Shown piece after piece: positions 35,839-44,006 of a stretch of DNA of 64,000 nucleotides (the stretch's first letter is position 1; each line of letters begins with the position of its first letter). A program made the position numbers and the translations under genes. Origin of the DNA: Bacteroidales bacterium (GTDB lineage: Bacteria > Bacteroidota > Bacteroidia > Bacteroidales > P3); assembly GCA_017940465.1 (NCBI GenBank), contig JAGAYN010000040.1, forward strand, positions 44,219 to 108,218, given 5' to 3'. The notes under the pieces are model-generated. The model was not told where the DNA came from, did not search any database, and saw only the letters and a list, made by a program, of their open reading frames with translations.

Positions 35839-35889
35839 CAGCGTCGAAGGTGAAATCCGCGACACATGTAAGTACATTGAAATTAGAAT

Positions 35890-36065
35890 TTTGCCGTGGT
35901 CCTCACCCGCTGCGGCGGGAGGCCAAGAGGGAATCGCGTGCGAATCGCGAGCTGTCGCGCAACTGTAAGCCCGCACACCTGCCGCCGGAGCACAAGCCAT
36001 TGAGGTTCACCACCTTGAGAAGGCGCACCGGCGGAGCGGGGAAGCCAGGAGACCTGCCACGGCGC
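35890..36065 (+). ncRNA. Cobalamin (B12) riboswitch
   Basis: The aptamer core is recognisable: AAGAGGGAATCGCGTGCGAA (35925-35944), GCTGTCGCGCAACTGTAAGC (35951-35970) and the B12 box GAAGCCAGGAGACCTGCC (36041-36058). CCGTGG (35894-35899) and CCACGG (36057-36062) close stem P1. It sits in the roughly 350-nt leader of nrdD-nrdG, so it should lower expression of the anaerobic ribonucleotide reductase when adenosylcobalamin is present. The sequence to 36150 (GGTTGCCGTTGCC, GATGCCGTCGGC) probably holds the expression platform. Confidence 0.93.
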
Positions 36066-36192
36066 AAACAAAAGAATAGAACAAACCGCTTTCGCGTCAA
36101 AAGCCGGTTGCCGTTGCCTGTCCCCGATGCCGTCGGCTCCCATGCGCGAGAGTTATATAAACATAAATAGTAACAATATATAGCAATAACAC

Positions 36193-38301
36193 ATGGAGAC
36201 CAACAGTTTCAGCATCACCAAGCGCGACGGGCAGACCGAACGCTTCTCATTGGACAAGATAATGAATGCCATCATCAAGGCATTCAACTCGATAGGCGAA
36301 CCCATCGACCTGGGGCGCCTCTCGAAGATACTCTCGCGTCTGGACATCCACAACGGCATCACCGTCGAGGAGATACAGAACCAGGTGGAGGTGGCCCTGA
36401 TGCAGGAGGGCTACTACCAAGTGGCGAAGAACTTCATCCTCTACCGCCAGCAGCACACCGAGGACCGCGAGACCCTCGAAAAGATGAAGTTCCTCTCCGA
36501 CTACATGGACGCCGCCAACGCCGCCTCGGGCTCGAAATACGACGCCAACGCCAACGTCGAGCACAAGAACATCGCCACCCTCATAGGCGAGCTGCCCAAG
36601 AGCGGCTTCATCCGCCTCAACCGCCGCCTGCTCGTCGACCGCATCAAGAAGATGTACGGCAAGGAACTGGCCGACAAGTATATCGACCTCCTCACCCACC
36701 ACTTCATCTACAAGAACGACGAGACCTCGCTGGCCAACTACTGCGCCTCCATCACCATGTATCCCTGGCTCCTCGGCGGCACCATGAGCATCGGCGGCAA
36801 CAGCACGGCGCCGACCAACCTCAAGTCGTTCTGCGGCGGCTTCATCAACATGGTATTCATGGTCTCCTCCATGCTCAGCGGCGCCTGCGCCACGCCGGAA
36901 TTCCTGATGTACCTCAACTACTTCATCGGCCTCGACTACGGCAAGGACTACTACAAGGACCCCGCCCGCGTGGTGGACCTCTCACTCAAACAGCGCACCG
37001 TGGACAAGGTGATCACCGACTGCTTCGAGCAGATCGTCTACAGCCTCAACCAGCCCACCGGCGCCCGCAACTACCAGGCCGTCTTCTGGAACATAGCCTA
37101 TTACGACCGCCCCTACTTCGACTCCATCTTCGGCGAGTTCCGCTTCCCCGACGGATCCGCCCCCGACTGGAACGGCCTCTGCTGGCTGCAGAAACGCTTC
37201 ATGCGTTGGTTCAACGAGGAGCGCACCAAGGCCGTCCTCACCTTCCCCGTCGAGACAATGGCCCTCCTCTACAACCCCGACCACACTTTCGCCGACCCAG
37301 ACATGGCGCAGTTCACCGCCGAGATGTACGCCGAAGGCCACTCTTTCTTCACCTACATGAGCGACAACGCCGACTCCCTCTCCAGCTGCTGCCGCCTCCG
37401 CAACGAAATCACCGACAACGGCTTCAGCTACACCCTCGGCGCCGGCGGCGTCAGCACCGGCAGCAAGAGCGTCCTCACCATCAACCTCAACCGCTGCATC
37501 CAGTACGCGGTGAACCACGAGATGGACTACCGCGAGTACCTCACCGACATCATCGACCTCTGCCACAAGGTGCAGACCGCCTACAACGAGAACCTCAAGG
37601 AACTGGCCGACCACGGCATGCTGCCCCTCTTCGACGCAGGCTACATCAACATCGCCCGCCAGTACCTCACCATCGGCGTCAATGGCCTGGTCGAGGCCGC
37701 CGAATTCATGGGCATCCCCATCACCGACAACCCCCAGTACCGCGAGTTCGTGCAGACCGTCCTCGGCCTCGTCGAAAAGAAAAACAAGGAGTACCGCACC
37801 AAGGAACTCATGTTCAACTGCGAGATGATCCCCGCCGAGAACGTGGGCGTCAAGCACGCCAAATGGGACCGCGAGGACGGCTACTACGTGCCCCGCGACT
37901 GCTACAATTCCTACTTCTATATCGTTGAAGACCAGTCGCTCAGCATCATCGACAAGTTCCGCCTCCACGGCGCCCCTTATATCGAGCACCTCACCGGCGG
38001 CAGCGCCCTGCACATGAACCTCGACGAACACCTCACCCAGGAGCAGTACATGCAACTCCTCCAGGTAGCCGCCAAGGAAGGCTGCAACTACTTCACCTTC
38101 AACGTCCCCAACACCATCTGCAACGACTGCGGACACATCGACAAGCGCAACCTCAAAGAGTGCCCCCACTGCCACTCGAAGAACGTGGACTACATGACCC
38201 GCATCATCGGCTACCTCAAGCGCGTCTCCAACTTCAGCCAGCCCCGCCAACAGGAAGCCGCCCGACGCTACTACGCCACGCCCGAGCACATGGAGGCCTG
38301 A
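36193..38301 (+). CDS. nrdD: Anaerobic (class III) ribonucleoside-triphosphate reductase
   Basis: 702 residues. N-terminal ATP-cone (about 4-95, FSITKRDGQTERFSLDKIMN), then the ten-stranded barrel. A Zn site is formed by Cys643, Cys646, Cys657 and Cys660 (CNDCGHID, CPHCHSKN). The glycyl radical is expected at Gly673 in TRIIGYLKR. It reduces ribonucleotides without oxygen, with the radical installed by NrdG. The stop shares its A with the nrdG start (TGATG). Expression is placed under B12 control by the upstream riboswitch. Confidence 0.96.
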   Translation: METNSFSITKRDGQTERFSLDKIMNAIIKAFNSIGEPIDLGRLSKILSRLDIHNGITVEEIQNQVEVALMQEGYYQVAKNFILYRQQHTEDRETLEKMKFLSDYMDAANAASGSKYDANANVEHKNIATLIGELPKSGFIRLNRRLLVDRIKKMYGKELADKYIDLLTHHFIYKNDETSLANYCASITMYPWLLGGTMSIGGNSTAPTNLKSFCGGFINMVFMVSSMLSGACATPEFLMYLNYFIGLDYGKDYYKDPARVVDLSLKQRTVDKVITDCFEQIVYSLNQPTGARNYQAVFWNIAYYDRPYFDSIFGEFRFPDGSAPDWNGLCWLQKRFMRWFNEERTKAVLTFPVETMALLYNPDHTFADPDMAQFTAEMYAEGHSFFTYMSDNADSLSSCCRLRNEITDNGFSYTLGAGGVSTGSKSVLTINLNRCIQYAVNHEMDYREYLTDIIDLCHKVQTAYNENLKELADHGMLPLFDAGYINIARQYLTIGVNGLVEAAEFMGIPITDNPQYREFVQTVLGLVEKKNKEYRTKELMFNCEMIPAENVGVKHAKWDREDGYYVPRDCYNSYFYIVEDQSLSIIDKFRLHGAPYIEHLTGGSALHMNLDEHLTQEQYMQLLQVAAKEGCNYFTFNVPNTICNDCGHIDKRNLKECPHCHSKNVDYMTRIIGYLKRVSNFSQPRQQEAARRYYATPEHMEA

Positions 38302-38765
38302 TGCTCAAGTATGTAGACAGTGCCGTAGTGTTCCAGGAGATACCCGATGAGGTGACGCTGGCCGTCAACCTCTCGGGTTGCCCGTGCCGATGCCCGGGAT
38401 GCCACTCGAAACACCTGTGGGCCGACACTGGCAACGAGCTGACCGACAGCGAAGTGGACCGTCTCCTGCAGGAACACAAAGGGCACGTCACATGCCTCGC
38501 CCTCATGGGCGGAGACGCCGCACCTGCCGAAGTGGACGGCCTTTTCGCGCGTCTGCGCGAGAGGCACAAGGGAATGCACACCGCCTGGTACAGCGGCCGG
38601 TCGCTGCTGGCCAAGGAGATGGACCTCAACCACTTGGACTACCTCAAGCTCGGCCCCTACCTCGCCCACCTCGGCCCCTTGAAACACCGCACCACCAACC
38701 AGCGCCTCTACCGCGTCCGCGGCGGCACCCTCGAGGACATCACGGCGCACTTCTGGCGCAAGTAG
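38301..38765 (+). CDS. nrdG: Anaerobic ribonucleotide reductase activase (radical SAM)
   Basis: 154 residues. The radical SAM cluster motif is CPCRCPGC with Cys27, Cys31 and Cys34 in the CxxxCxxC spacing, followed by MGGDAAP as the SAM-binding GGE-like turn. It uses a [4Fe-4S] cluster and SAM to form the glycyl radical on NrdD. It is directly coupled to nrdD (TGATG overlap). Confidence 0.94.
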   Translation: MLKYVDSAVVFQEIPDEVTLAVNLSGCPCRCPGCHSKHLWADTGNELTDSEVDRLLQEHKGHVTCLALMGGDAAPAEVDGLFARLRERHKGMHTAWYSGRSLLAKEMDLNHLDYLKLGPYLAHLGPLKHRTTNQRLYRVRGGTLEDITAHFWRK

Positions 38766-38796
38766 ACCTCAATCCCTTTGAATCCGGCAGGCACCC

Positions 38797-38858
38797 TATA
38801 GGTATCCAGTAGGTATCCGGTAGGTATTTACTTCGACTGAGAACCGATATGAACGCTT
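38797..38858 (+). repeat. 11-bp-unit flanking repeat, copy B (left of DGR)
   Basis: TAGGTATCCAG, TAGGTATCCGG, TAGGTATTTACTTCGACTG, AGAACCGATATGAACGCTTATG. Nearly identical to copy C on the other side of the DGR, in the same orientation, and to copy A at 24.85 kb in the opposite orientation. Confidence 0.9.
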
Positions 38859-38908
38859 ATGACCCCTCCACCCCCGGCCCACAGGGCGAAGCCGCCCTCC
38901 CGCCACCG

Positions 38909-40150
38909 CTACCTGTAATGCCGCACCGCCTGGTCGAACACCCCGCCGGCGCCGAACGCCTCGTTCCCGGCCAGCAGGTGCCGCCGCAGGCGGTAGTTCT
39001 GCCAGTGCGCCAGCAGGCCGCAGTAGGAGTTCAGCGGCGCCTCCCACTCCCCGGGGGCGCACGCCGCCAGCCGTTCCAGCTTGCGCCCGATGCGCCGCAC
39101 GCTGGTGCGCGAGGCGTAGATGCGGTGCGGCTTCAGCCAGTGACCCAGGAACTCCACGCCGTGCCACACCGACGAGAGGGTGGTCTTCCCCTCGTGCAGT
39201 TCCAGCCCCAGCCGCCCGCGCAGCAGCGCGTCCACCTGCGGCACCAGCGACAGCAGCCACCCGCGGTCGGCGCCGACCACGTAGAAGTCGTCCACGTAGC
39301 GCCCGTAGTGGCGGCACCCCAGCACGCGCTTCATATACTGGTCCAGCACGTTGAGGTACACGTTGCTGAACAGCTGGCTGGTGAGGTTGCCTATCGGCAG
39401 GCCGCAACCGGGGGGCGAGTGGAAGAGGCTCTTGTCGTGCGGCAGGCCGTGCCAGTCGGCCGCGCTGCCCGCCATGCGGCAGTCCCTTGTGGGGTCGAGC
39501 AGGGCGATGACCTCGGTCAGGTAGCGCACGAAGCCGAGGTCCAGCACGTCGCCCCAGCGGCGGTCGCGGCTGGGCGAGACGTAGTGCGGAGCCATCCCCG
39601 CGAGGGTCTCCTCGCAGATGCCGAGCAGCCGCCGGCGGTCGATGTGCATGAAGTAGCCCCGGATGTCCATCTTCAGCACGTAGCAGGGCACCGTGTAGCC
39701 CTGGCTCTCCTGGCGGATGTGCCGCGCCAGCCGCGCCACGCCGTAGTGCGTCCCCCGGCCGGGGATGCAGCTGTAGCTGTCGTGGATGAAGGTGCGCTCG
39801 TAGAGCACATGCGTGTAGTTGTAGTAGAGGTGGTGCACGATGCGGTCGCGGAAGTCGGCGGCAAACACCTCGCGCTGCTTCGGGTCGGTGATGATGAAGC
39901 ACTGCGAGGGGCGCGGGCGGTAGCGGCGCTCGTAGAGCTCGTCGCACAGCTCGGCGAGGTTCTCCTCCAGCCGCGCCTCGAAGCGTTGCACGTAGGGCTT
40001 GCCGCCCTTGTGCCGCCGCGCATCGAGAAAAGCCTGGCGCAGGTCGGCCATCAGGCCTTCCCGCGTCAGGCGGAAAACGGAATCTGTTTCAGGCAAGGGC
40101 TGACGCACAGCGCGGACGGATTGACCGTTGTTGCGGTTGTTGTTGTTCAT
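38909..40150 (-). CDS. DGR reverse transcriptase
   Basis: 413 residues from ATG 40150. RT motifs: MDIRGYF (161-167), PIGNLTSQLFSNVYLN (252-267, DGR/group II-like motif 4) and the catalytic YVDD (285-288), then motifs to WLKPHRIY. It copies the TR RNA with errors at adenines and the cDNA replaces VR in the target gene. The first 17 codons (MNNNNRNNGQSVRAVRQ) lie inside TR. If translation really starts there, TR is also RT coding sequence. The next in-frame ATG (40051, MADLRQAFLDARRHK) is an alternative start preceded by GGGAAGG. Confidence 0.95.
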   Translation of the reverse strand: MNNNNRNNGQSVRAVRQPLPETDSVFRLTREGLMADLRQAFLDARRHKGGKPYVQRFEARLEENLAELCDELYERRYRPRPSQCFIITDPKQREVFAADFRDRIVHHLYYNYTHVLYERTFIHDSYSCIPGRGTHYGVARLARHIRQESQGYTVPCYVLKMDIRGYFMHIDRRRLLGICEETLAGMAPHYVSPSRDRRWGDVLDLGFVRYLTEVIALLDPTRDCRMAGSAADWHGLPHDKSLFHSPPGCGLPIGNLTSQLFSNVYLNVLDQYMKRVLGCRHYGRYVDDFYVVGADRGWLLSLVPQVDALLRGRLGLELHEGKTTLSSVWHGVEFLGHWLKPHRIYASRTSVRRIGRKLERLAACAPGEWEAPLNSYCGLLAHWQNYRLRRHLLAGNEAFGAGGVFDQAVRHYR

Positions 40151-40293
40151 GTTCTGGTCGTCCGAGTTGAAGTTGAAGTTCCACGCGTTGTTCGGGTTGT
40201 CCGCGTTGAGCGACGAGGACCAGTAGTTGCCGTTCTCACCCGCGTTGTTGAGCTCGCTGTCCCAGCGGTTGCCGGCGGCGGGCAGGAAGAGGC
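40100..40293 (-). repeat. DGR template repeat (TR)
   Basis: 194 bp aligning without gaps to VR (41115-41308). All 28 mismatches are at positions where the TR coding strand (minus) has A; every other base is identical. Read in the target frame, TR is Asn-rich (AAC codons at the variable sites), ending GQSVRAVRQ. The right edge (GAAGAGGC on plus) and left edge (CTGACGC) are sharp. Confidence 0.97.
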
Positions 40294-40379
40294 CCCCTTG
40301 TTAGCGTCAGTGGCCAAAGGTTGTTTTCGAAGCCGAAGGAATGCCTCCTTGCGCAAGCCAACGGCCCCATCGGCGTTGT

Positions 40380-40403
40380 CCCTCCGCGCCGTGGCGCGGA
40401 GGG
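40380..40403 (-). other. Perfect hairpin upstream of TR
   Basis: CCCTCCGCGCC, GT, GGCGCGGAGGG: an 11-bp stem in the 148-bp gap between the accessory gene and TR. It could be a structured part of the DGR RNA or a weak terminator. No T run follows. Confidence 0.6.
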
Positions 40404-40441
40404 CCGGCCACCTGTGAACTTACCTTGTTCTCGTTCCGTTG

Positions 40442-40981
40442 CTACAATATCTGCGATATCTGCTGCTTCACATCCGAAAGAAAAGCCATGCACTCCATAG
40501 GCGAATGCTGCTCCACCGGGTAGGCCACGATGCGGAGCATGATGTCCGTCAGCCGCGGATGGGCGTTGCGGTCGGCCGCGCGCTTCTCCTCGTCGGCCTT
40601 CTTCTTCGAGGCCTCGGTCAAAGGCTGCGCCTGCTTCCAGTCGGCAAATCCGGCCTGCAGCGTGCCGGCGTCGGCGTCGGGCGGAAAGGCCGTCTCCGGC
40701 AGCCTGACCTCCACCACCGCCTCGCCCGAGGGCTGCACGTCGGCGCCCTGGGGCACGTACCGCTCGAGGCTCGTCAGCGGGAATCCCACGAAGACGATGT
40801 CCTCGCCGCCCTTGAGCAGGCGGTGCGTGACCTTCAGTTCCGTGAAGTAATGCACCATCAGCCAGGCGCTCCACTCGTAGGCACGGTAGAAAGTGCCCTC
40901 TTTGAACAGGTGCATCGTCGCGCACTGCTCCGCAGTGCCGCGACGTCTCTCCATTTCAAGAATGTCTTTCAGTTGTGGCAT
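40442..40981 (-). CDS. DGR accessory protein, MutS-like (MSL) type
   Basis: 179 residues. The segment ATMHLFKEGTFYRAYEWSAW (about 21-40) and VFVGFPLTSLERYV (about 62-75) aligns with MutS domain I (LFYRMGDFYELFYDDA and MAGIPYHAVENYL). This is the feature of the MSL accessory proteins described for DGRs that lack Avd. The C-terminal part has a charged helix (EASKKKADEEKRAADRNA). The position between the variable gene and TR supports an accessory role in mutagenic retrohoming. The fold match is by eye; biochemical function is unknown. No Avd-like gene is present in the cassette. Confidence 0.75.
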   Translation of the reverse strand: MPQLKDILEMERRRGTAEQCATMHLFKEGTFYRAYEWSAWLMVHYFTELKVTHRLLKGGEDIVFVGFPLTSLERYVPQGADVQPSGEAVVEVRLPETAFPPDADAGTLQAGFADWKQAQPLTEASKKKADEEKRAADRNAHPRLTDIMLRIVAYPVEQHSPMECMAFLSDVKQQISQIL

Positions 40982-41007
40982 CTGTATTCATTTTTTTTAA
41001 GTTACCG

Positions 41008-41080
41008 AAGGAGGAAGAGGCCGCGCGTGGGCTGGGTAGCTCGCCTCCGGCGAGCGCCCACGCCCGACCTCTTCCTCCTT
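41008..41080. repeat. Long inverted repeat just 3' of VR
   Basis: AAGGAGGAAGAGG with the extension CGCGCGTGGGC (left arm) pairs with the right arm GCCCACGCCCGA and CCTCTTCCTCCTT: about 24 bp with two mismatches. The loop carries a nested GCTCGCC/GGCGAGC hairpin. It begins 34 bp beyond VR, where DGRs such as that of phage BPP-1 have a DNA hairpin/cruciform that marks the target. Confidence 0.85.
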
Positions 41081-41108
41081 TGCCCGTTGCGGGGGGAACG
41101 GAACAAGG

Positions 41109-41837
41109 TTAGTTCTGACGCACAGCGCGGACGGACTGACCGTCGCCGCGGCCGTAGTCGCTCATGTCCTGGCCGCCCGAGTAGAAGTAGAAGCCCCACG
41201 CGTCGCCCGGGGAGTCCGCGTAGAGCGACGAGGACCAGTAGTAGCCGTACTCACCCGCGTCGTAGAGCCCGCTGTCCCAGCGGTAGCCGGCGGCGGGCAG
41301 GAAGAGGCTGTTGCCGTTAGCGGCGGTGAACTTTCTTCCGTTGACACCGTTCATGGTGGTCCACTCGGCAGTGGTGTTGTTGATGAGTTCTTCCCATTCC
41401 GCTCTGGTCGGAATGCGGGCACCGTTGCCAAGTTTGGCGGTGGCAACATCATCGGAGGCTTGCAGGGTGGTCTGGCCGTCGGTGGTGCCGTAGTCAGAGT
41501 CGGTGTTGTACTTGGTCAGCGTCTCTAATCCGCCCTCCGCATCCACGGTGCAGTACTTGTACGTGCTCCAGTTGTAAACGCTCTTGGTCGCAGTCTCGCC
41601 CCAGGCATAGTAATCGCCAGGCTCCTCGGGGCTGGTGGCTCCGAGGTTCCACTTGGCCCACAACAGGCCACTGGGCAGCCCCAGGTCTACCCACTCGGCG
41701 GTCTCCGTGCCGCTGCCGCCGCCGGAGCCGCCACCCGTGGGGTTGTCGTTCTTGTCATCGTCGTCCTTGCCGCAGGCTGCAAACAGCAGCCCTGCGCTCA
41801 TGGCCACCAGGGCCAGCATCTTGAAGGTCTTTTTCAT
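41109..41837 (-). CDS. DGR target: variable C-type-lectin-fold lipoprotein
   Basis: 242 residues. Lipobox LLFAAC (Cys21) followed by GKDDDDKND, an acidic stretch like the Bacteroidota lipoprotein surface-export signal. A Gly/Ser linker precedes a Fibrobacter-major-paralogue/C-lectin domain (WVDLGLPSGLLWAKWNLGA; GARIPTRAEWEELI; LFLPAAGYRWDS; YYWSSSLY). VR covers residues 177-241. The variable residues are those encoded by template AAC/AAT/GAC codons: Tyr, Asp, Gly and Ser now replace template Asn. It is probably a surface adhesin whose ligand-binding face is diversified. No TAnnTTTG box is obvious upstream. Confidence 0.93.
   Translation of the reverse strand: MKKTFKMLALVAMSAGLLFAACGKDDDDKNDNPTGGGSGGGSGTETAEWVDLGLPSGLLWAKWNLGATSPEEPGDYYAWGETATKSVYNWSTYKYCTVDAEGGLETLTKYNTDSDYGTTDGQTTLQASDDVATAKLGNGARIPTRAEWEELINNTTAEWTTMNGVNGRKFTAANGNSLFLPAAGYRWDSGLYDAGEYGYYWSSSLYADSPGDAWGFYFYSGGQDMSDYGRGDGQSVRAVRQN
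41115..41308 (-). repeat. DGR variable repeat (VR)
   Basis: Last 194 bp of the target gene (65 codons) up to one codon before its stop. Differs from TR at 28 sites, all at template adenines, with A to G, A to T and one A to C changes on the coding strand. The final 26 bp (TCCGTCCGCGCTGTGCGTCAG side) are almost invariant and serve as the initiation-of-homing region. Confidence 0.97.
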
Positions 41838-41875
41838 GTTGCTTTTTTTTAAATGAATAATAAAATTGAATTAAA

Positions 41876-42210
41876 TTACAGGCAGGGGTGGAGCGCAGCG
41901 CAACCCCTGCACCCCTTCCGCCACCCGACATGGAACCCCGGAGGGGTGGCAGGAACACATAAACCGATATCCTGCCGCCCCTACGGGGCTCTGTGTATTA
42001 TTGTGCCGCCATTTACAGGGGTTCCGGCCTGCGGCCTCCACCCCTGCCTGTATTCCGACGTCCCCTCCGGGGACTTGCGCATGCCCCCCAACTATCCGAT
42101 TTTTCCCCAAGTCCGGAGGACGCAGGATTACAGGCAGGGGTGGAGCGTAGCGCAACCCCTGCGACGCTTCCAGCATACAACACGGAACCCCGGAGGGGTG
42201 GCAGGAACAC
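41876..42210. repeat. 83-bp direct repeat pair and GC-rich palindromes upstream of the DGR target
   Basis: 41876-41958 and 42128-42210 are direct repeats: TTACAGGCAGGGGTGGAGCG, CGCAACCCCTGC, a diverged centre, then GGAACCCCGGAGGGGTGGCA and GGAACAC. Between them lie CCCCTACGGGG, GGCCTGCGGCC and CCCCTCCGGGG palindromes and an inverted copy of the CAGGCAGGGGTGGA motif. Nothing codes here. It looks like a cluster of REP-like palindromic units. Confidence 0.85.
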
Positions 42211-42250
42211 GAACCCAAAACCCCGCCCCTTCTCTACTCCACATTCCACG

Positions 42251-42278
42251 CCCCCTCTCTTGAAAGGAGAGGGGGATG
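42251..42278. terminator. Small GC hairpin
   Basis: CCCCCTCTC, loop TTGAAA, GGAGAGGGGG: stem of about 9 bp in the noncoding region between the palindrome cluster and repeat copy C. No T run, so terminator function is weak. Confidence 0.35.
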
Positions 42279-42298
42279 GGGGGTGAGGCCCTCCGAAC

Positions 42299-42366
42299 CC
42301 GGTAGGTATCCGGTAGGTATCCCATAGGTATTTACTTCGACTGTGAACCGATATGAACGCTTATGG
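42299..42366 (+). repeat. 11-bp-unit flanking repeat, copy C (right of DGR)
   Basis: CGGTAGGTATCC, GGTAGGTATCC, CATAGGTATTTACTTCGACTG, TGAACCGATATGAACGCTTATG. Same orientation as copy B; together they bracket a segment of about 3.5 kb holding the whole DGR. Confidence 0.9.
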
Positions 42367-42373
42367 ACCGGCA

Positions 42374-42408
42374 AAAAAGATAGCGGAGCCCTGCGGGCTC
42401 CGCTATCG
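42374..42408 (-). terminator. Terminator of the DUF4332-like gene
   Basis: GATAGCGGAGCCC and GGGCTCCGCTATC: a perfect 13-bp stem, followed on the minus strand by six T. Confidence 0.85.
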
Positions 42409-42424
42409 GCTGTGTTTCAACAGG

Positions 42425-42832
42425 TTAGTATTTCACGATGGGCTCCATCTCCTTGGCCTGGGCGATCATCTTCTCGATCTCCTTGACGGCGGGGACGCGG
42501 TTGGTGAGGTTCTTCTCGGCGTTCACGGCCTCCATCTTGGCGTGGAGGTTGGCGGGGACGCGGTGGCGGAACTCCTTGATGGTGTCCACCCCGGCGGCCT
42601 CCAGCAGCTCGGCGAACTGCCCGGCCACGCCCTTGATGCGGAAGAGGTCGGCGTGGTTGGTCCACTTGAGGATGAGTTTCTCGCTGATTTCCGACGCCTC
42701 GGCCACTTTCCTGCGGCCGCTCTTGGTGGCGCATTGGGCCAGGAGGTCGTCTGTGGTTTTCAGGCCTGCTTTTTTGAGTTTGGCAGCGTAGACGTCGCCG
42801 ATGCCTTCGATTTGTTCCAGTTTGTATGCCAT
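42425..42832 (-). CDS. Helix-hairpin-helix DUF4332-like protein
   Basis: 135 residues from ATG 42832 (MAYKLEQIEGIGDVYAAKLKK). Two helix-hairpin-helix units (IEGIGDVYAAKLKKAGL, about 8-24, and IKGVAGQFAELLEAAGV, about 66-82) give the DUF4332 pattern. Such domains bind DNA or act in protein contacts, and the role here is unknown. A minus-strand -7 box TACATTTG (plus 42903-42910) lies about 70 bp upstream and its own terminator follows, so it is a single-gene unit. A longer frame to 42925 runs across that promoter and is rejected. Confidence 0.82.
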   Translation of the reverse strand: MAYKLEQIEGIGDVYAAKLKKAGLKTTDDLLAQCATKSGRRKVAEASEISEKLILKWTNHADLFRIKGVAGQFAELLEAAGVDTIKEFRHRVPANLHAKMEAVNAEKNLTNRVPAVKEIEKMIAQAKEMEPIVKY

Positions 42833-43016
42833 AATGTGTTGATTGTTTGTGCGCCTACTCTTTGAAAGGATTTTCGGCACCCTCCTTGATGTTTTGACGG
42901 TGCAAATGTACGAACTTTTTTGCAAAGGGGAGGAAAAAGTTTTTCAACAGGATGTGTTGAAAGTGCCGGCTAACGGCCTCGTAGCCAGTCCGGACAGAGT
43001 TTTTTTGAAAAACAAT

Positions 43017-43047
43017 TTTGCCATGTCGGAAAATGTTCGTACCTTTG
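43017..43047 (+). promoter_or_regulatory. tRNA-Ser promoter
   Basis: TTTG (43017-43020), spacer CCATGTCGGAAAATGTTCG, TACCTTTG (43040-43047). The spacer shares 17 bases with that of the tRNA-Leu promoter. Confidence 0.85.
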
Positions 43048-43078
43048 CACCCGTTTTCCGCAAGAGGAGGACGCACAC

Positions 43079-43166
43079 GGAAAGATGCCGGAGTGGTCGA
43101 TCGGGGCGGTCTCGAAAACCGTTGACCCCCTCGCGGGGTCCCAGGGTTCGAATCCCTGTCTTTCCG
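43079..43166 (+). tRNA. tRNA-Ser (anticodon CGA)
   Basis: Acceptor GGAAAGA pairs with TCTTTCC, discriminator G at 43166, and CCA is not encoded. The anticodon loop CTCGAAA gives CGA, reading UCG. A long variable arm (ACCCCCTCGCGGGGTC) and the T arm CAGGGTTCGAATCCCTG confirm a class II tRNA-Ser. Confidence 0.95.
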
Positions 43167-43169
43167 CCG

Positions 43170-43204
43170 GAATGCGCAGCCGAAGAGGGCGGCGCATTTT
43201 TTTT
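43170..43204 (+). terminator. tRNA-Ser terminator
   Basis: AATGCGCAGCC and GGCGGCGCATT with a central mismatch, then eight T. It also lies at the 3' end of the convergent rnz gene. Confidence 0.75.
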
Positions 43205-43205
43205 G

Positions 43206-44006
43206 TCATTCGTGCCGGGCGGAGGCGCGCAGGTCGAGCCGCAGGCCGTCGGCGGCCACGGTGGTGTTGGGGAAGTGGGCCTGGGCCTGGGAGAGGAGCA
43301 GGTCGGGCTCCTTGTAGCGGGCGGAGATGTGGGTCAGCAGCAGCTGGCGCGCACCCGCCTGGGCGGCGAGGCGTGCGGCCTGGCCGGCGGTGAGGTGGAG
43401 CCGTTTCTCGGCCAGGGGGGCGTATTCGTCGGTGAAGGTGCTCTCGAGGCACAGCAGGTCGACCCCCTCCACATAGGGCAGGATGGCCTCGGTGTAGACG
43501 GTGTCGCAGCAGTAGGCATAGCGCAGCCGCCCGCGCGAACCCTCCGGCCTGTCGCCCACGAGGAAGCCGTAGGTGGGCACCGAGTGCGTCAGCGGGAATG
43601 CATCGACGGTGCACTTCGCATTCTCGAACACGCGGTGCAGGCCCTCGGTGAAGTCCATCTCGTGCCACTCGATGGGGTAGGATATGTTGTTGCCCGTCAG
43701 GCGGAAGGTGGTCTCGATCACCTCGCGCGCCCCGACCGGGGCCACCACCGTCGCCGGCTCGGTGCGTCCGCAGAGGTGCATGGTGGAGAGCAGGCCGGGC
43801 AGGCCGAAGAAGTGGTCGCCGTGGAGATGCGAGATGAGGATGGTGGAGATGCTCTGCAGGCGGAACCGCATGCGGCGGATGCCGTTCTGGGTCCCCTCGG
43901 CACAGTCGATGAGCATCTTGAAGCCATTGACATTCAGCACCTGTGCGCTGCAGCAGCGATGGCCTGTGGGGAGGGCGGCTCCGGAGCCTAAGACGGTGAG
44001 TATCAT
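43206..44006 (-). CDS. rnz: Ribonuclease Z
   Basis: 266 residues of the metallo-beta-lactamase fold. The Zn motif is HLHGDHFFGLPGLL (about 60-73). GSGAALPTGHRCCSAQV at the N-terminus and LLLTHISARY near the C-terminus are typical of short bacterial RNase Z, although this protein is slightly shorter than the usual 305 or so residues. It matures the 3' end of tRNA precursors, and both tRNA genes here lack an encoded CCA, consistent with a need for it. It lies convergent to tRNA-Ser. Confidence 0.9.
   Translation of the reverse strand: MILTVLGSGAALPTGHRCCSAQVLNVNGFKMLIDCAEGTQNGIRRMRFRLQSISTILISHLHGDHFFGLPGLLSTMHLCGRTEPATVVAPVGAREVIETTFRLTGNNISYPIEWHEMDFTEGLHRVFENAKCTVDAFPLTHSVPTYGFLVGDRPEGSRGRLRYAYCCDTVYTEAILPYVEGVDLLCLESTFTDEYAPLAEKRLHLTAGQAARLAAQAGARQLLLTHISARYKEPDLLLSQAQAHFPNTTVAADGLRLDLRASARHE

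Follow-up and report, generated by a model that had tools for sequence, protein, structure and literature searches.

A chromosomal diversity-generating retroelement with an MSL accessory gene and six candidate target repeats in a Bacteroidales genome

The retroelement at the locus

We analyzed a 64,000-nt stretch of DNA, here called the window, from a Bacteroidales bacterium (assembly GCA_017940465.1, contig JAGAYN010000040.1, positions 44,219 to 108,218). It carries a complete diversity-generating retroelement (DGR) with all core parts: a reverse transcriptase (RT), a template repeat (TR), a variable repeat (VR) and a target gene (VP), accompanied by an accessory gene, MSL. The order is VP, MSL, TR, RT, with every part on the minus strand, and a comparison of gene order found that this MSL-type arrangement recurs in relatives. 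An earlier note on this DNA had called the DGR complete on the basis of RT, TR, VR and a target lipoprotein. Those parts stand, but the note overlooked the MSL gene (40442-40981) and five further VRs elsewhere in the genome. The features are listed below in window coordinates; IMH* and IMH (initiation of mutagenic homing) refer to the 3' ends of TR and VR, respectively.

38909..40096, minus strand: DGR reverse transcriptase; probable TTG start at 40096, ATG at 40051 possible
40092..40102, minus strand: IMH*-like junction at the TR 3' end (CAGCCCTTGCC here, CAGCACTTGCC in the related locus L044); overlaps the likely RT start
40100..40293, minus strand: template repeat TR; 51 A, 19 in-frame AAC codons
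40294..40441, minus strand: MSL-TR spacer of 148 nt, in which an Avd gene would not fit
40442..40981, minus strand: MSL accessory gene, 179 aa, MutS domain I-like by profile comparisons
41008..41080, minus strand: inverted repeat 3' of VR1, a candidate hairpin or cruciform; 25-nt arms, 92% complementary
41107..41117, minus strand: IMH-like junction at the VR1 3' end (CAGAACTAACC), lying across the stop codon
41109..41837, minus strand: target gene VP1, 242-aa predicted lipoprotein with the VR in its C-terminal domain
41115..41308, minus strand: variable repeat VR1; 28 of 28 mismatches to TR at TR adenines

TR and VR1 align over 194 nt without a gap. They differ at 28 sites, and on the minus strand, which is the coding strand, all 28 are adenines in TR. 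With 51 adenines among the 194 positions of TR, the chance of such an outcome is 4e-20 (hypergeometric). This recomputation bears out the alignment reported in the earlier note. The VR1 substitutions are A>G (18), A>T (9) and A>C (1). Across VR1 and four of the other VRs described below (VR1 to VR5), the first adenine of the AAC codons was changed in 80 of 95 cases and the second in 40 of 95. Likeness between TR and VR extends about 9 nt beyond the repeat, with TR-specific and VR-specific differences. TR matched no Rfam family at the gathering score. The parts of the cassette and its adenine specificity can be read directly from the DNA.

The RT translation contains the YVDD and PIGNLTSQ motifs that the earlier note had described, matches RVT_1 at E = 2.8e-10 and has an intact frame. 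YxDD and GNxxSQ-type are the names of motifs of DGR-type RTs; among 158 related RTs, the former occurs in all and the latter in 142. The best sequence match in the PDB is 8ub7 (E = 3.4e-30), which we take to be the BPP-1 RT. Among the best 80 cellular contigs, the closest titled relatives come mostly from gut and rumen Bacteroidales genomes. Another RT of this genome, G000:C13, was rejected as a second DGR RT: it has YCDD, has no GNxxSQ motif and is 29% identical over 111 aa. Locus L044 retains a TTG equivalent to that at 40096, with no nearby ATG. The RT frame of the window runs open back through the whole of TR, with an ATG at 40150 inside it, giving an open frame of 463 aa; TR is likewise open in the RT frame of L044, L145 and L146. 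It is possible that TR is translated as an extension of the RT.

VP1 has an open frame; between the end of VR1 and that of the gene lie 6 nt, which include the stop codon. The protein begins with a lipobox-like sequence (LLFAAC, judged by eye) followed by CGKDDDDK. Its C-terminal domain resembles Lcl_C (E = 2.4e-7; 31.5 bits against a cut-off of 34.9) and FISUMP (E = 1.4e-5, below the cut-off). The lectin fold that the earlier note gave the target is putative, with these sub-cut-off sequence similarities behind it. In four related loci (L146 1989-3734 and the VR-bearing open reading frames of L160, L044 and L045), the N-terminal part of the DGR target looks by eye like a Ser/Thr protein kinase.

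Concerted identity among the variable repeats

The genome is a draft of 2.24 Mb in 56 contigs, 94% complete. Among the best 40 of 45 candidates, at least seven are TR-like matches: TR, VR1 and five VRs on other contigs, with 40100-40293 as the sole TR of the seven. VP1 correspondingly has five paralogues, with gene bodies 73-87% identical. Over the 194 nt, non-adenine mismatches to TR number 0 in VR1, 0 in VR2, 9 in VR3, 11 in VR4, 11 in VR5 and 29 in VR6, and adenine-site mismatches range from 25 to 31 of 51. The last 25 nt of the repeat hold all nine of the non-adenine mismatches in VR3 and 9 of the 11 in VR4.

VRs were compared with one another over TR positions 1-168, which contain 120 non-adenine sites, and gene bodies were compared over the 345 nt upstream. 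VR1, VR2 and VR3 have 0 of 120 non-adenine differences in every pair, while at TR adenines the same pairs differ at 24 to 28 of 51. Their gene bodies differ pairwise at 49 to 80 of 345 nt (14-23%), and the Fisher P value for body versus VR is 1.9e-7 for VR1/VR2, 3.2e-7 for VR1/VR3 and 3.3e-12 for VR2/VR3. From each of these three, VR4 differs at 2 of the 120 sites, VR5 at 10 and VR6 at 14. The closest pair by gene body is VR4 and VR6 (87%), and yet it shows 16 of 120 non-adenine differences, so VR6 looks like a target that is no longer rewritten. The pattern across VR1 to VR3, itself directly visible along with the number of VR copies, appears to reflect concerted rewriting from one template, in trans. 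It also lends indirect support to RT-dependent transfer from TR to VR.

VP2 (L010, approximately 640-1372) has an in-frame stop upstream of VR2, about 0.8 kb from the start of its contig, and VR2 equals TR at every non-adenine site. Such a match downstream of a stop makes protein selection alone an unlikely cause, unless the stop is an assembly error. The complete absence of non-adenine differences over the full repeat in both VR1 and VR2 suggests that little time has passed since the last rewriting. The earlier note's view that the system is active or was recently active is thus strengthened by the non-adenine identity of several VRs with TR, set against diverged gene bodies, and by its repetition in a sister genome, G469.

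G469 has an RT. Its local TR differs from its five VRs at 0-3 of 113 non-adenine sites and at 20-32 of 51 adenines. The body of the VP on contig C41 diverges from those of the other VPs there by 42-51%, and its VR differs at 3-4 of 113 sites. Some G469 pairs fall short of significance, since the upstream stretch is short or identical in part of the comparisons. Non-adenine differences between VR pairs were also counted in three genomes that had no RT listed at E <= 1e-20, with the sites set by the TR of the window: 10-42 of 116 in G001 (six VRs), 17-31 of 116 in G457 (three VRs; assumed to be in the same sample) and 0-47 of 116 in G004 (six VRs). These four genomes were chosen from the 53 with TR-like matches, own genome included, and are not a survey.

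In six loci from draft genomes (L291, L293, L294, L295, L281 and L282), VRs lie approximately 95-360 nt from contig starts. VR repeats may therefore break assemblies.

Accessory genes, RT groups and repeat ends

The MSL protein matches the MutS domain I family PF01624 with 20.1 bits (E = 7.5e-4; cut-off 20.6), rising to 20.9 bits with its neighbours in frame, and 19 of 82 aligned MSL relatives match the family at E <= 0.01. When an MSL profile of 82 rows (81 of 101 non-redundant sequences plus the window) was compared with a MutS domain I profile from 16 related genomes, the match had a probability of 86.7 and E = 4.4e-6, and MSL 'FYR' paired with MutS 'FYE'. On these profile comparisons, the DGR of the window is MSL-type. 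No match to solved structures was found with the profile at E <= 10, and none to 50,697 phage records in a single-sequence search at 1e-5.

Phe-x-Glu is the mismatch-binding motif of MutS. It reads FYE, with Glu as third residue, in 26 of 26 MutS proteins of related genomes. The corresponding site was examined in 134 rows of MSL matches, each spanning 140 or more profile positions, with redundancy kept. The first residue is aromatic in 132; the third is R/H/K in 113, S/T in 17, I/C in 3, a gap in 1 and acidic in none. In the smaller 82-row alignment, it is R/H/K in 80. MSL is therefore without the Phe-x-Glu motif.

Related loci were taken as the best 80 viral and best 80 cellular contigs by RT. 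MSL lies upstream of the RT in 71 of the viral contigs; eight others end before the MSL region, and one has a partial MSL inside the RT frame. With MSL counted only if it lies at most 2.5 kb upstream of the RT, the 160 loci comprise 96 with MSL only, 25 with MSL and Avd, 18 with Avd only, 8 with neither and 13 cut by the contig end. These labels depend on that distance: four Avd-only loci have MSL further than 2.5 kb upstream, L217 has it at the RT 3' end, and the 'neither' loci L091 and L218 have a partial MSL within the RT frame. Six accessory frames from loci without MSL were scanned, of which five match bAvd and one matches PF05635 only. Where MSL and Avd occur together, their frames overlap or lie at most 30 nt apart in 22 of 25 loci, with 404 nt between them in L214. 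Natural MSL-Avd fusions in a single open frame occur in L193 (1366-2268) and L220 (1961-2692).

The DGR of the window is not Avd-type (BPP-1-like), as no Avd gene lies beside its RT: an Avd profile from eight related DGR loci matched none of the 129 open frames in window 36000-44000. bAvd (PF22296) had no match in the rest of the genome, a weak absence given that the control genomes likewise had none. Two PF05635 proteins over the cut-off lie elsewhere in the genome, and neither matches the Avd profile at E <= 1.

By its RT, the window belongs with loci that carry MSL but no recognisable Avd; MSL+Avd and Avd-only loci branch elsewhere. In a maximum-likelihood tree of 158 RTs, one branch (SH-aLRT 95) separates off a set that contains every one of the 94 MSL-only rows, which stand for 93 of the 96 MSL-only loci and for the window. 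That set holds 105 rows, including nine cut loci and two 'neither' loci, and no Avd-bearing row. It is viral in 77 of the 105 rows; the rows nearest to the window are cellular. The tree was built quickly, leaves many forks open and has a midpoint root for drawing only; a loss of Avd in the MSL-only group, as opposed to a gain elsewhere, is thus a presumption.

The two repeats end differently. In 100 loci with a TR/VR pair and MSL, AGCA[CT]T occurs within 22 nt of the end of 65 TRs and no VR, and AG[CT]?AA[CT] occurs at the end of 78 VRs and 14 TRs. These counts treat related loci, which are not independent; with near-copies removed, AGCA[CT]T is found at 49 of 83 TRs and 0 of 83 VRs, whereas shuffling gives 1.3 on average and never more than 5 of 83. 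By class, AGCAYT is present at the TR end in 59 of 78 MSL-only loci (VR 0 of 78), 3 of 21 MSL+Avd loci and 0 of 13 Avd-only loci. The looser AG[CA]A[CT]T was found in 60, 12 and 1 TRs and in 8, 0 and 3 VRs of the same three classes. The TR of the window itself fails the strict motif: its CAGCCCTTGCC is one base off the CAGCACTTGCC of L044, and VR1 has CAGAACTAACC. A TR junction form that never appears in VR fits a start of copying at that point, like the IMH* of BPP-1. A similar difference between TR and VR 3' ends is described in Treponema denticola (PMC4891356).

Over the 110 nt 3' of each repeat (RNA parameters), the fold z-score is -6.8 for VR1, -4.6 for VR2, -3.6 for VR5 and -4.3 for VR6, compared with -1.3 for VR3, +1.1 for VR4 and -1.5 for TR. 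Among 86 non-redundant loci, z is below -2 in 50 VR flanks versus 6 TR flanks (Wilcoxon P = 3e-10). Part of this signal could come from ordinary terminators behind the target genes. A hairpin 3' of VR is required for efficient homing in BPP-1 (PMC3240598).

Nine neighbouring genes were scanned. Eight match leuS, a patatin, nrdD, a 4Fe-4S protein, DUF4332, a metallo-beta-lactamase-fold protein, a sodium:solute symporter and a KH-domain GTPase, and the ninth had no match. A prophage location was rejected, none of the nine being a phage gene. A 69-nt intergenic repeat flanks the DGR (38793-38861 and 42297-42365), but it has at least 40 copies in the genome (best 40 of 117 candidates) and is thus not specific to the DGR, which we do not regard as repeat-bounded. 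Two RNA matches lie nearby: a Cobalamin riboswitch (RF00174, window 35880-36075) directly upstream of the anaerobic ribonucleotide reductase gene, and a DUF805b RNA (RF02914, window 42852-42887) that overlaps the start of the DUF4332 frame (42425-42925).

Interpretation and comparison with known systems

We consider it very probable that this is a chromosomal MSL-type DGR, recently active, in which one TR rewrites a cis target and paralogues in trans. The TR transcript would be copied by the RT with errors at adenines, with MSL in an assisting role that we assign to it by analogy, and the cDNA would replace the VR of the adjacent lipoprotein gene (cis) and those of three, or as many as five, paralogues (trans). 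Copying would begin at the TR-specific IMH*-like 3' junction. That junction would itself not be transferred, so each target would keep its own 3' end, with a hairpin in four of the six. The product would be a predicted surface lipoprotein family whose C-terminal face can vary at as many as 19 codons of the form NNC, none of which can turn into a stop. Reverse transcription, priming, retrohoming, surface display and ligand binding would all follow the BPP-1 model.

Several observations weigh against this account. VR3 and VR4 have no hairpin and a different 3' end, yet they differ from TR at only 0 and 2 of the 120 non-adenine sites, which a simple rule of IMH plus hairpin does not predict. Both VR2 and VR4 sit close to where their contigs begin, and an assembly error could account for the VP2 stop. 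A draft of this completeness and contig number could also lack a second TR or RT that the genome has. In G004, where no RT was detected, one VR pair has 0 of 116 non-adenine differences, so the RT-negative comparison is not clean; the RT of that genome may be unassembled or recently lost. Finally, activity today would be an extrapolation from sequence patterns.

It is conceivable, though we think it unlikely, that VR3 and VR4 were last rewritten by a second DGR, lost or unassembled, whose TR had another tail. The two have in common an alternative C-terminus (SVRPVRSAR) and 3' flank. Downstream of VR3 lies a decayed MSL, and downstream of VR4 a 38-nt fragment similar to the stretch between VP and MSL. 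In G001, a VP with the same C-terminus adjoins a 34-aa RT remnant. However, no second TR, intact MSL or second DGR RT was found in the assembly (best 40 of 45 TR candidates), the tail pattern is confined in this genome to VR3, VR4 and VR6, and the TR of the second element must have matched that of the window at all 120 non-adenine sites.

Less probable still is that the DGR died recently and that the pattern is a fossil of past rewriting, with no VR changing now. VR5 and VR6 have already drifted, and an RT (E <= 1e-20) was found in 16 of 119 genomes of the genus, own included, versus TR-like DNA in at least 53 of 119 (best six candidates per genome). Against this, the RT and MSL frames are intact, and the full-length non-adenine identity of VR1 and VR2 with TR makes the latest rewriting a recent one.

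Plain homologous gene conversion could operate among paralogues with bodies as similar as these, but it would also have erased the many adenine-site differences among VR1 to VR3 and would be expected to run past the TR boundaries, and we regard it as very improbable. Purifying selection on the protein is the weakest candidate: the VR does encode a conserved domain scaffold, but all non-adenine sites are kept, third codon positions too, while the body drifted, conservation stops at the repeat edges, and VR2 lies downstream of an in-frame stop, if that stop is real.

Recent rewriting by a single TR remains our preferred reading, and a broader proposal can be built on it, which we offer tentatively and with more doubt than belief. 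In the RT group formed by gut Bacteroidales and phage-like contigs, the window included, Avd may have been lost once. MSL, a neighbour of Avd in related operons and its fusion partner in two of these, would have become the only accessory of the RT. The AGCAYT junction would have come along with it, marking the start of copying and never being transferred, and targets left by a decayed sister element (VR3, VR4) would have been adopted. The aromatic and mostly basic residues that replace Phe-x-Glu in MSL would contact the RNA-cDNA or cDNA-VR duplex.

DGRs as such are known, as are MSL, remote targets and VR hairpins. The MSL-only grouping, its junction motif and the adoption of leftover targets may be new: the open literature searched, available in part and not including the main survey (Wu et al. 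2018), yielded no description of the AGCAYT junction or of an MSL-only group.

The system amounts to a compact natural experiment, in which a single template, six VRs at graded distances from it, and sister species in which a core was or was not detected make the age of rewriting readable from non-adenine drift. If the MSL-only grouping is true, DGR mutagenesis does not need Avd, and the role of the accessory is to be sought in MSL. From the TR-only and VR-only 3' junction motifs comes a rule, open to test, for which way information is transferred in systems other than the BPP-1 model.

The BPP-1 DGR is a phage element with Avd as its accessory and one target; the window has MSL without Avd at the locus, six candidate targets and ordinary chromosomal neighbours. 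The two are alike in their RT, TR, C-terminal VR and adenine-specific substitutions, and in having different TR and VR 3' ends (IMH*/IMH) and a hairpin 3' of VR (PMC3240598, PMC12875486). In its accessory, the window resembles a known class in which a MutS domain I (PF01624) protein, MSL, serves the DGR (PMC10053308, citing Wu et al. 2018). Multiple VRs were counted in 271 of 948 non-redundant DGRs (PMC6642488), and broad DGR activity in nature has been described (PMC8144416). Action in trans is known from Thiohalocapsa PB-PSB1, which differs from the window in having conflict-system targets and several DGR loci, as opposed to lipoproteins and the one TR found here (PMC10907252). A lipoprotein target with a Fib_succ_major domain has been reported (PMC4159848). 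DGRs of gut Bacteroides likewise diversify surface proteins, but those are tip pilins (PMC12632263, citing Macadangdang et al. 2024). T. denticola resembles the window in its remote targets, its leftover targets whose core is gone, its IMH/IMH*-like ends and its lack of association with phage genes. Its leftover VR kept the former TR type, whereas the leftover-looking VR3 and VR4 of this genome match the surviving TR (PMC4891356).

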